Below are positions 12,940 to 62,905 of a stretch of 64,000 bases of DNA, in pieces. A program made the translations under genes and the position numbers. This DNA is from Terriglobales bacterium (GTDB lineage: Bacteria > Acidobacteriota > Terriglobia > Terriglobales > Acidobacteriaceae), in contig JAICWP010000001.1 of the NCBI GenBank assembly GCA_025934735.1, positions 372,001 through 436,000 of the forward strand. Direction: 5' to 3'. A model generated the notes under the pieces. That model had not been told where the DNA came from, did not search any database, and saw nothing but the letters and a program-made list of their open reading frames with translations. The first letter of the stretch is position 1. Every line of letters begins with the position of its first letter.

Positions 12940-12983
12940 TGCTTGAAACTTGAGACTCGAAACCTGAAACTCGCAACTGGGCA
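12940..12983. repeat. Degenerate word repeat after DMT permease stop codon
   Basis: A run of near-identical words of 8-10 bases (TTGAAACTTGAG, ACTCGAAACC, TGAAACTCGCAACT on the plus strand) occupies the gap and stops right where the DMT permease gene ends (its TGA is at 12984-12986). The same style of low-complexity, word-like repeat recurs at other gene ends in this window. No gene fits in the 188-base gap. Confidence 0.6.
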
Positions 12984-14285
12984 TCAGTTGAAGCGCGTAA
13001 CCTTCCACAACGCGGTAGCGCACGCAGCCAGCAGCGCCAGGCACAGGGCCAGCAGCACAATGGCCGCGGTTCCATCTAACGCAAGGGACGGCCAATGGGC
13101 GCGCGTGCCTGTCCACACGAAGGCGCCCGTAGCCATGGCTACGAGCATCCAGTCCAGCCAGGTGCGGCGCTGTGGTGGAGTACTGGCGCGGCCTTCCATG
13201 CCAGAACGCACAAACTCAATATCAATGCCGTAGCGCCGGTGCTCGCGCTCGGCCGCCTCCACCCACTTCAAGTATTCGGAGTTGTCAACTACGGAAAAAG
13301 AAATGGCGGCCAGGCCCAGCGCCATCAGCACCGAACCCCAGATCGCTCCCGCCACCGCTCCGTGCTGCCAGCCGCGAAACTCCCCGAAGGCCACGGCTCC
13401 CCACAGCAGTCCCCACAACTGGTTGGAGTTGGAGATGGGAATGCCACGGCTGACGCCGATGTACTTAACAGCGTACTGCTGGAAAATATCGCCGATCACC
13501 CAGACGAAACCCGCAGCCAACAGCCAGAAGAGCACGTCCTGGGCTCCGCTGAGCTGGCGATAAAGGTTATGAAATCCGCCCATGTATACAACCGCCAGCG
13601 CGGTCATCATGCCTAGTTCCCCAATGGTGAAGAAGGAGACGAATGACAGCGGGTTCATGCCCGAGAGGTAGGCCTTGCGGTAGGGAATGTACATGCTCCC
13701 CCAGAGCACGCCCGCGCCCAGGGCGGCTGCAATACCGCGAACGGCCACGTGGGAGGCAATCTGGCTGGAGGAGGCGCGCGCCAGCAGCATGCCGCCGACA
13801 AAAATGATGGCAGCGCCGCCACCCACCGCTCCCCAGCGGCGCCAGCCGGCGTGGTGCAACTCGCCGAAAAAGAGCACACCCCAGAGGATGCCGATCAGCC
13901 CGTTGGTGTTCCACAAAGGAAACGCCACGCTCAGGCCCAGGTCACGGATGGCGAAAATAGTGAGAGTGTTGGCCACCGACCACAGGCATCCGGCGATGAT
14001 GGCCCAGATCACCAGGTGCGGAGCCTCCACAATGTCGGCCCGAATACCGGAGGTGCCGCGCACCATGGCGGGCAGGCTCCAGCGTCCCAGGAAGACGCCG
14101 GCAACCATGGCGAAGGAAATCAGGACCGGAGAAATGCCGGTGGTGACCAGCTTGGTGGGAACTTCAGCGGCGCCCAGCCAGGCGCCGGCGGCAATGCCGC
14201 ACAAAACGCCAACGCGCTGCAGGGTGCGCACGCGCTCCAGCACCGCCGGGCCAGGAGCCGTCGCGGGTGAGCTTAGCTGACCCAT
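12984..14285 (-). CDS. DMT-superfamily permease (GRP/RhaT-like sugar transporter)
   Basis: A 433-residue inner-membrane protein with ten hydrophobic helices in residues ~20-345. Repeated features are GAWLGAAEVPTKLV, SVAFPLWNTNGLIGILWGVL with FFGEL, and in the second half VSRGIPISNSNQLWGLLWG with AFGEFRG. The duplicated N-x-L-x-G-x-L-W-G pattern is typical of GRP/RhaT-type sugar:H+ symporters within the drug/metabolite superfamily. A ~25-residue cytosolic insert (YLKWVEAAEREHRRYGIDIE) separates the bundle from two more helices at the end, which is longer than usual. Its start ATG lies inside the last codons of a 45-aa membrane peptide gene, so the two are translationally coupled. The substrate is unknown; a sugar is the family guess. 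Confidence 0.8.
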   Translation of the reverse strand: MGQLSSPATAPGPAVLERVRTLQRVGVLCGIAAGAWLGAAEVPTKLVTTGISPVLISFAMVAGVFLGRWSLPAMVRGTSGIRADIVEAPHLVIWAIIAGCLWSVANTLTIFAIRDLGLSVAFPLWNTNGLIGILWGVLFFGELHHAGWRRWGAVGGGAAIIFVGGMLLARASSSQIASHVAVRGIAAALGAGVLWGSMYIPYRKAYLSGMNPLSFVSFFTIGELGMMTALAVVYMGGFHNLYRQLSGAQDVLFWLLAAGFVWVIGDIFQQYAVKYIGVSRGIPISNSNQLWGLLWGAVAFGEFRGWQHGAVAGAIWGSVLMALGLAAISFSVVDNSEYLKWVEAAEREHRRYGIDIEFVRSGMEGRASTPPQRRTWLDWMLVAMATGAFVWTGTRAHWPSLALDGTAAIVLLALCLALLAACATALWKVTRFN

Positions 14286-32364: not shown

Positions 32365-32832
32365 ATGGGACTATCCATTTCCAACGTGCTTCGCCGCGTC
32401 TTCCTAATAGACCTGCTTAAGGGATTGTCCGTAACCTTCCGGTACCAGGATCCAAAAGAGGTCTACACCGAGCAGTATCCCTTGCAGCGGCCGCAGGTGG
32501 CTGAGCGCTACCGCGGGGCGCCGCGCTTGAACGTGAATCCTGATAGCGGCGAGACCATGTGTATCGCTTGCGACCTGTGCGCCTTGGCCTGCCCTGAGCA
32601 CCTGATCGTGGTCACCAGCGAGCGCAATGCCGCCACCCGGCGAAAGGAACTCACCACCTTCACCTACGACCTCAGTCGCTGCATGTTCTGCGGCTTGTGC
32701 GAGGACGCTTGTCCCACCGACGCGCTGGAGTTGACCCAGGATTTCGAACTCGCCAACTACTCCCGCGAGGGCGCCATCTGGGACCGGCAGACTCTGGAAA
32801 AGGGCCCGCAGCCTACGGTCTATAGTCGGTAG
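32365..32832 (+). CDS. nuoI: NADH-quinone oxidoreductase subunit I (NuoI)
   Basis: A 155-residue peripheral subunit of respiratory complex I. It carries two 4Fe-4S clusters (N6a, N6b) bound by CIACDLCALACP and CMFCGLCEDACP, with the N-terminal amphipathic stretch (GLSVTFRYQDPKEVYTEQYP) that lies on the membrane arm. It passes electrons from NuoG to NuoB. The gene stands alone, about 26 kb from the nuoACDHJKL cluster in this window, instead of its usual place between nuoH and nuoJ. Its TAG stop is the first word of a short repeat (32830-32860). Confidence 0.93.
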   Translation: MGLSISNVLRRVFLIDLLKGLSVTFRYQDPKEVYTEQYPLQRPQVAERYRGAPRLNVNPDSGETMCIACDLCALACPEHLIVVTSERNAATRRKELTTFTYDLSRCMFCGLCEDACPTDALELTQDFELANYSREGAIWDRQTLEKGPQPTVYSR

Positions 32833-32860
32833 TACCTAGTACCGTGTTCCGAGTACCGGG
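32830..32860. repeat. TAGTACC word repeat starting at nuoI stop codon
   Basis: Words TAGTACC, TAGTACCG and GAGTACCGG follow each other, and the first TAG is the nuoI stop codon. It is one of several stop-anchored word repeats in this window. Confidence 0.55.
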
Positions 32861-44700: not shown

Positions 44701-45075
44701 CTTGTTGTAGGTCCTGACAATGGCGTCTTCTTCTTTTTGCCCGACGTAGAAGCGCACAATGACCATGCTTACGCCCGGCCGGCTGGTGGAGTAGAGGTAC
44801 TCCACCCCGGGCACCTCGCGCAGCAGCTTCTCCATGGGAATGGTGACGCGCTGCTCCACCTCCTGCGCCGAGGCTCCCGGCATCTGCACGAAAACATCGA
44901 GCATGGGCACGATGATCTGCGGCTCTTCCTCGCGCGGCGTCTGCCAAATCGCGAAGGCGCCCAGCAGCAGCGCCGCCGTAATGGCCAGCGGCGTCAGTTT
45001 CGACTGGATGAAGCTGTGCGCGATGCGACCAGCCAGCCGCAGAGGGGACGATTTGTCGTCGGATGTCTTCACCAA
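41767..45075 (-). CDS. RND efflux permease (tripartite pump)
   Basis: A 1102-residue inner-membrane pump with the usual twelve transmembrane helices and two large porter loops. Marks include [20 protein letters not shown] near the N-terminus, PASRPLIKV-type porter sequence ([19 protein letters not shown]), [40 protein letters not shown] (TM4 with the proton-relay Asp pair) and, in the second half, [20 protein letters not shown]. The start is TTG (45075) or the next codon GTG (45072). It acts with the adaptor and TolC genes upstream; substrate range is not predictable. A 157-base repeat-filled gap separates it from the adaptor gene. Confidence 0.92.
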
Positions 45076-45240
45076 GTTCTTTCCCGCGGATTAACGCGGA
45101 GTGCTGCGGATGAATTCAGCACTTAGTATTCAGCCAGGAAGCCCTTAGCAATTAGTAGTTAGCATTTAGCCCTTAAACCACTTGCCACCCCCGCCGCTGC
45201 CGTGGACTGGCTAAGTGCTAATTGCTAGCTGCTAATTGCT
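45076..45240. repeat. Inverted word repeats starting at adaptor stop codon
   Basis: On the minus strand the adaptor gene ends GAA AGC AAT TAG, and this AGCAATTAG is the first of several words (AGCAATTAG, CAGCTAGC, AATTAGCACTTAGCC). The same words return in opposite sense as TTAGCAATTAGTAGTTAGC at ~45145-45165, giving an imperfect inverted repeat around a GC-rich core (CCACCCCCGCCGCTGCCGTGG). At 45085-45112 a CGCGGATTAACGCGGAG phrase of another repeat type lies close to the RND start. No gene is present. Confidence 0.65.
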
Positions 45241-62369: not shown

Positions 62370-62406
62370 CTGGCTAGAAAGCTAGACAGCCAGGAAGCAG
62401 ATTTTT

Positions 62407-62712
62407 ATGGTTCCAATCACCACTCTTCATTATCTCGTCGTGGCTGCGGCCCTGTTTGTGCTGGGCACCATCGGTGTGCTCACGCGCCGCAATGTGGTCA
62501 TTATTTTGATGTCGATTGAACTGATTCTCAACGCGGTGAACCTCAACCTGGTCGCTTTTTCGCGGCTGTATGGCCTGCATGGCCAGGTGTTTGCTGTATT
62601 CGTGATTACCGACGCTGCCGCTGAAGCCGCAGTCGGCCTCGGCATTCTCATCGCCTTTTTCCGCAACAAGGAGACGGTGAACATGGATGAAGTGGATTTA
62701 CTGAAGTGGTAG
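62407..62712 (+). CDS. nuoK: NADH-quinone oxidoreductase subunit K
   Basis: A 101-residue three-helix subunit with the proton-path Glu in [17 protein letters not shown] and in [19 protein letters not shown]. It lies 37 bases after nuoJ. The TAG stop (62710-62712) is the first word of the repeat that fills the gap to nuoL. Confidence 0.96.
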
Positions 62713-62905
62713 CTAGCTGGTAATTAGTAGCTGGTAGTTAGTGTATGGGTAGCAGTTGGCAATTGGCACTTAGCATTTGGCCAGCCACCCTTATCGGCAA
62801 TGCGGTTCACGGCTAAATGCTAATTGCCAAGTGCTAATTGCTGAAAGGTGAAAGCTGAAAGCCAGCAGCATAAGAGCTAGTGACTAGTAGCTACCAGCTA
62901 GCAGC
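62710..62905. repeat. Long imperfect inverted word repeat between nuoK and nuoL
   Basis: Starting at the nuoK stop, the words TAGCTAGCTGG, TAATTAGTAGCTGG, TAGTTAGTG run into TTGGCAATTGGCACTTAGCA. After a ~30-base core the same words return in opposite sense (GGCTAAATGCTAATTGCCAA, AGTGCTAATTGCTG, GACTAGTAGCTACCAGCTAG). The result is a ~190-base imperfect cruciform in the middle of the nuo operon. No gene lies here. Confidence 0.7.

Follow-up and report, generated by a model that had tools for sequence, protein, structure and literature searches.

Word arrays at three stop codons

The interval from 45076 to 45240 of the window (the whole 64,000-nt stretch of Terriglobales DNA that was analyzed) comprises the 159-nt gap between an adaptor gene and a permease gene, together with the last codons of the adaptor gene. 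Both genes lie on the minus strand, and the adaptor is an RND adaptor (TIGR01730). An initial annotation had reported that here, as at two other genes, the TAG stop codon is the first word of a short repeat, and that each locus uses a different word. All three repeats were confirmed where it had placed them, each with a word of its own: AGCAATTAG at the stop of the adaptor gene (minus strand, 45232-45240), TAGCTAGCTGG at the stop of nuoK (62710), and TAGTACCTAGTACC at the stop of a nuoI-like gene (32830).

The entire adaptor-permease gap (45073-45231, minus strand) bears a hairpin. The arm at the adaptor stop (45209-45240, minus strand) is made up of the heptad words AGCAATTAG CAGCTAGCAATTAGCACTTAGCC, the first of which holds the last codons of the gene as well as the TAG stop itself (45232-45234), and the inverted partner arm lies at 45145-45172 on the same strand (hairpin z = -4.67 for the fold against chance). 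The nuoK-nuoL gap is 202 nt long (hairpin z = -4.4) and carries its arrays on the plus strand. In particular, an outer left arm that starts at the TAG stop and contains the 14-nt double word TAGCTGGTAATTAG (62710-62741) and an outer right arm before nuoL (62877-62902) enclose an inner left arm of TTAGCAN/TTGGCAN words (62750-62782), an inner right arm of GCYAANT words (62811-62844), and an additional heptad array of GCTGAAA (62840-62862). Behind the nuoI-like gene the gap measures 42 nt, and a single-arm array of TAGTACC begins at that gene's stop (32830-32860, plus strand). Two further arrays were found in the window: an octad array of GCTAGAAA/GCTAGACA in the nuoJ-nuoK gap (62373-62393, plus strand) and a GAAACTT-type heptad array (12942-12978, minus strand) behind the gene at 12984-14243.

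Word arrays in gaps across the genome

The three repeats are the edges of genome-wide intergenic arrays of degenerate 7-nt, and sometimes 8-nt, words. We scanned 1.66 Mb of the 4.94-Mb genome (one third), using a home-made codon-based caller that yielded 1384 genes (85% coding), and searched the gaps for self-matches at every lag, with a segment threshold of a score of 10 or more. (Note that the scan thresholds were chosen by us and varied little.) Lags of 7 and 8 and their multiples stood out, with 79 period-7 and 37 period-8 segments, and shuffled gaps gave 0 segments of either period at the same threshold. Period-7 arrays are present in gaps far beyond chance. The words are diverse, and include GCTAANT, GCTGANT, GAACTGA, TCAATCN, GAAACTT, AGTACC, and the octads GTAATTGN and AGCTAGTC.

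Many of the long gaps hold two inverted arms built from such words, so that one hairpin spans the distance from the stop codon to the next gene. In gaps with two arrays the median match score between arms was 17 in the inverted orientation, as compared with 4 in the direct orientation and 5 for arms taken from other gaps, where arms that share words can match equally well. The words at both edges of a gap are A- and C-rich when reading starts at the center of the gap and moves outward, and thus the polarity is equal at the stop and start edges. Some arrays have a single arm and no hairpin. Certain gaps of the same genome (G000) share longer sequences: a repeat of 67 nt, exact and lacking heptad structure, is common to the gaps at C8:60187-60791 and C8:89383-90766, and a set of other gaps has stretches that are 80-98% alike.

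We compared the positions of arrays with those of stop codons, a count that the initial annotation had proposed for the whole genome and that we ran on the 1.66 Mb. Array starts were not distributed at random around stops: 34 of 101 arrays started between -10 and +5 nt of a stop, versus 13.4 +/- 3.3 for random placement within the same gaps, and none of 4000 draws reached this number. At start codons, which were those of the home-made caller, 11 of 81 array edges coincided against 9.9 expected, and 20 against 13.1 when a wider margin was allowed. Moreover, divergent gaps, which contain no stop, were poorer in arrays than the remainder (6/210 versus 85/898; p = 0.001).

The second part of that prediction, a preference for TAG, did not hold. 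The 34 stop-abutting arrays follow 15 TAG, 10 TAA, and 9 TGA codons, and the genes in the 1.66 Mb end in 484 TAG, 355 TAA, and 540 TGA codons. No TAG excess was found in this comparison (15/34 versus 35% of genes; Fisher p = 0.28), nor in a stratified test (odds ratio 1.2, chi-square 0.02) over 12 gene junctions, which drew on this genome and on 20 related species. Where an array overlaps a stop, the stop is part of the word, be it TAG, TGA, or TAA (6, 6, and 4, respectively, of 16 stops covered). Nor did array words resemble the last 15 nt of their own gene better than the ends of other genes (mean percentile 0.39, where 0.5 is expected; n = 22). Location behind stops matters, and TAG does not. 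Of note, the use of TAG by 35% of genes (484/1379) seems high at about 61% GC, and the arrays offer no explanation for it.

The same junctions in related species

The tandem pattern GCYAANT was present in 45 of 200 genomes of the order, representing 25 of 57 genera, with the reversed pattern near zero; it also occurs in Bacteroidetes, Cyanobacteria, Verrucomicrobia, and Gammaproteobacteria, among others. For the comparison of individual junctions we used assembly contigs of 20 species, in stretches no longer than 20 kb. These species carry arrays at the nuoJ-nuoK, nuoK-nuoL, and nuoL-nuoM junctions, and in the same stretches we found no arrays at overlapping gene junctions. (The congeners G114 and G140 had almost no shared synteny in the stretches compared, and searching for nuoK in the genus to which G100 belongs led to a more distant NuoK set.)

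At nuoK-nuoL, 10 nt separate the genes in one relative of the same class, and in members of the family the gap ranges from 13 to about 200 nt and holds unlike words. In one related genus nearly all of 30 species have a heptad array in this gap, with words that depend on the species (TAGCTCT, TAGCTTC, TAGCACT, CAGCACT, AGTACC, or AAGTTTC). Sister species (L266 and L268, and L263 and L265), as placed by a tree from flanking coding DNA, differ in these words. G232 and G235 are alike at nuoL-nuoM (0.84) and not at nuoK-nuoL (0.52, with a shuffled background of 0.49). Other forms of repeat occur in this gap as well: L265, L272, L259, and L255 have a second palindrome, TGTCATCCTGAGCGAAGCGAAGGATCT and its inverse, within or beside the heptad arrays, and in L091 and L096 the nine-nt repeats CACGAAGGA and ACGCGGATGAACGCGGAT replace the heptads.

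A junction that we name atpB-atpE (a reading from the gene neighborhood, with no profile behind it) is found both filled and empty. The filled junctions, with a hairpin between the stop codon and a conserved leader, are those of G232, G005, G174, G109, G178, and G105; the hairpin is missing from G204, G235, G132, G205, G210, G222, and our own genome, and G187 has a different insert. At the junction r15-r16 (L311-L330) a leader, GCCGCAAGCGTGAGGGCGTCTGCACGG...ACCCACTGGCGGCAA, is conserved before the next gene in all species and may be a conserved RNA leader.

Relatives also bear on the stops themselves. The adaptor gene of our genome ends in AGC AAT TAG, which is the first word of the array, and in the two relatives that could be read confidently (G003 and G009) the stop of the gene is a TGA that immediately adjoins the next gene. 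Because these adaptors are 57-59% identical to ours, the comparison is suggestive; it points to a TAG that was probably brought by the array. At nuoK, the TAG stop is also found in relatives whose gaps hold other words (AAGTTTC, CAGCACT, or GAACTGA), which argues that the agreement between TAG and the array word at this gene is probably a coincidence.

Origin of the arrays and relation to known repeats

The closest known system is that of the TAACTGA heptamer direct repeats of Beggiatoaceae, Cyanobacteria, and Bacteroidetes, which have been proposed to act as transcript stabilizers, terminators, or translation regulators (MacGregor 2015, PMC4679880). Both are intergenic tandem heptamers with related words (GAACTGA and GCTAACT here), in both the word points to the start codon and is reversed near the upstream stop, both can overlap gene ends, and their phylogenetic spread is shared, including Cyanobacteria, Bacteroidetes, and Thiocystis. 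They differ in that our arrays use many words per genome, include octads, and have arms paired in hairpins, whereas the Beggiatoaceae genome is dominated by one word and yielded only one inverted repeat; moreover, TAACTGA sets lie mostly at starts, whereas the arrays described here are stronger at the stop edge. The stop-abutting hairpins are a variant of the known heptamer repeats, set apart by the hairpin arms, the many words, and the octads. (In a literature search that mostly covered papers outside subscription, we did not find such arrays described in Acidobacteriota.)

We consider that the stop-abutting arrays and hairpins have about an even chance of having arisen through slippage, template switching, and selection together. 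Words would multiply through replication slippage of 7 or 8 nt, and template switching or conversion across the hairpin would both make the second arm and keep the two arms alike. Arrays that grew into coding sequence or into a conserved leader element would be removed by selection, so that an array would come to fill the spacer starting at the stop. Were an array to overrun the end of a gene, its stop-rich words, with a period that is not a multiple of 3, could supply a new stop, whose identity (TAG, TGA, or TAA) would be set by the word. This origin is supported by the excess of periods 7 and 8 in gaps and the inverted match of the arms, by the excess at stop edges, the depletion in divergent gaps, and the fact that the identity of the stop follows the word. 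It is supported further by the filled and empty atpB-atpE junctions, with the array confined between stop and conserved leader, by the lack of arrays at overlapping junctions, and by the different words of sister species at one junction.

Precedents exist for both processes. A preference for 7-nt slippage has been suggested for simple repeats of prokaryotes (Mrazek 2007, as summarized in PMC4679880); as that summary presents them, these long simple sequence repeats likewise prefer 7-nt units outside genes, although they are near-perfect and direct and our units are degenerate and inverted. An excess of particular unit lengths over shuffles, as seen for periods 7 and 8 here, is what slippage would give. 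Template switching creates and maintains hairpins (PMC8794818), and the quasipalindromes it forms share with our arrays the making and correcting of inverted arms at the level of DNA (PMC8794818, PMC7202029); arms of tandem words are not described in these two papers. Our arms show no preference for G.U over A.C mismatches, as would be expected of template-switch hairpins. Neither slippage nor template switching predicts a dictionary of words common across genera or a fixed outward polarity, and together they leave the wholesale replacement of words unexplained. Since L265 and L272 look alike at nuoK-nuoL, the replacement in sister species could alternatively reflect recombination with other species.

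Mobile hairpin elements of the REP or MITE kind, inserted behind stops by a transposase acting in trans, would account for the presence and absence of the atpB-atpE hairpin and for loops that are alike between some loci, and REP/BIME palindromes likewise occur in many intergenic copies per genome (PMC3733652). We think this origin rather unlikely. Loops are mostly unlike, there is no single consensus element, and no consensus palindrome of the REP type (20-40 nt) was found to recur in the genome. Moreover, arrays do not flank the Y1 transposase matches as they would in a REP/RAYT system; none was found at the five Y1-transposase loci of the genome, and we rejected a link to these enzymes. The nuoJ-nuoK and nuoL-nuoM elements of G109 are 93% alike, as a mobile element would have it, but the genome of G109 holds no further full-length copy, with matches only at the level of words; with this one full-length pair, genome-wide copying of whole elements in G109 was also rejected.

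Similarly improbable, in our judgment, is a class of intercistronic RNA elements (stabilizers, terminators, or translation regulators) maintained by selection on RNA pairing or on the binding of a protein to the words. The strong folds, the association with gene 3' ends, and the recurrence at the nuo junctions of almost every species in one genus are what such elements would show. Nevertheless, on the gene strand in co-directional gaps arm mismatches comprised 98 G.U and 88 A.C, and in convergent gaps 25 and 21, and these similar counts give no sign of selection on RNA pairing; selection for wobble pairs was therefore rejected, and the absence of an RNA signature supports the slippage and template-switching origin. 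The inverted symmetry of the arms looks like a DNA-level product. Further points against RNA elements are the single-arm arrays that form no hairpin, the several relatives with no array at the same junction, and the results with Rfam 15, in which only one tRNA in the window passed the gathering score and no family was found for the arrays. Strong predicted intergenic folds, then, need not be RNA elements. The gene junctions of this family carry fast-turning hairpins whose position is kept as the words change, and they offer a natural series for separating the birth of hairpins at the DNA level from selection at the RNA level.

Less likely still is a dedicated DNA-writing or copying activity that would add heptad or octad words from a common dictionary, in a fixed outward polarity, behind stops in Acidobacteriota and other phyla, and that would rewrite the same junctions repeatedly. 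Least probable by far is the explanation given in the initial annotation, in which insertion targets TAG or the neighborhood of the stop codon is copied outward, and which is largely refuted: arrays do cluster at stops, and a TAG end is seen at 4 of the 6 filled atpB-atpE junctions and at 0 of the 7 empty ones, but the TAG rule fails for want of a TAG excess within this genome or across the 12 junctions, array words show no likeness to the end of the gene before them, and in most species it is TGA that precedes the nuoL-nuoM arrays.
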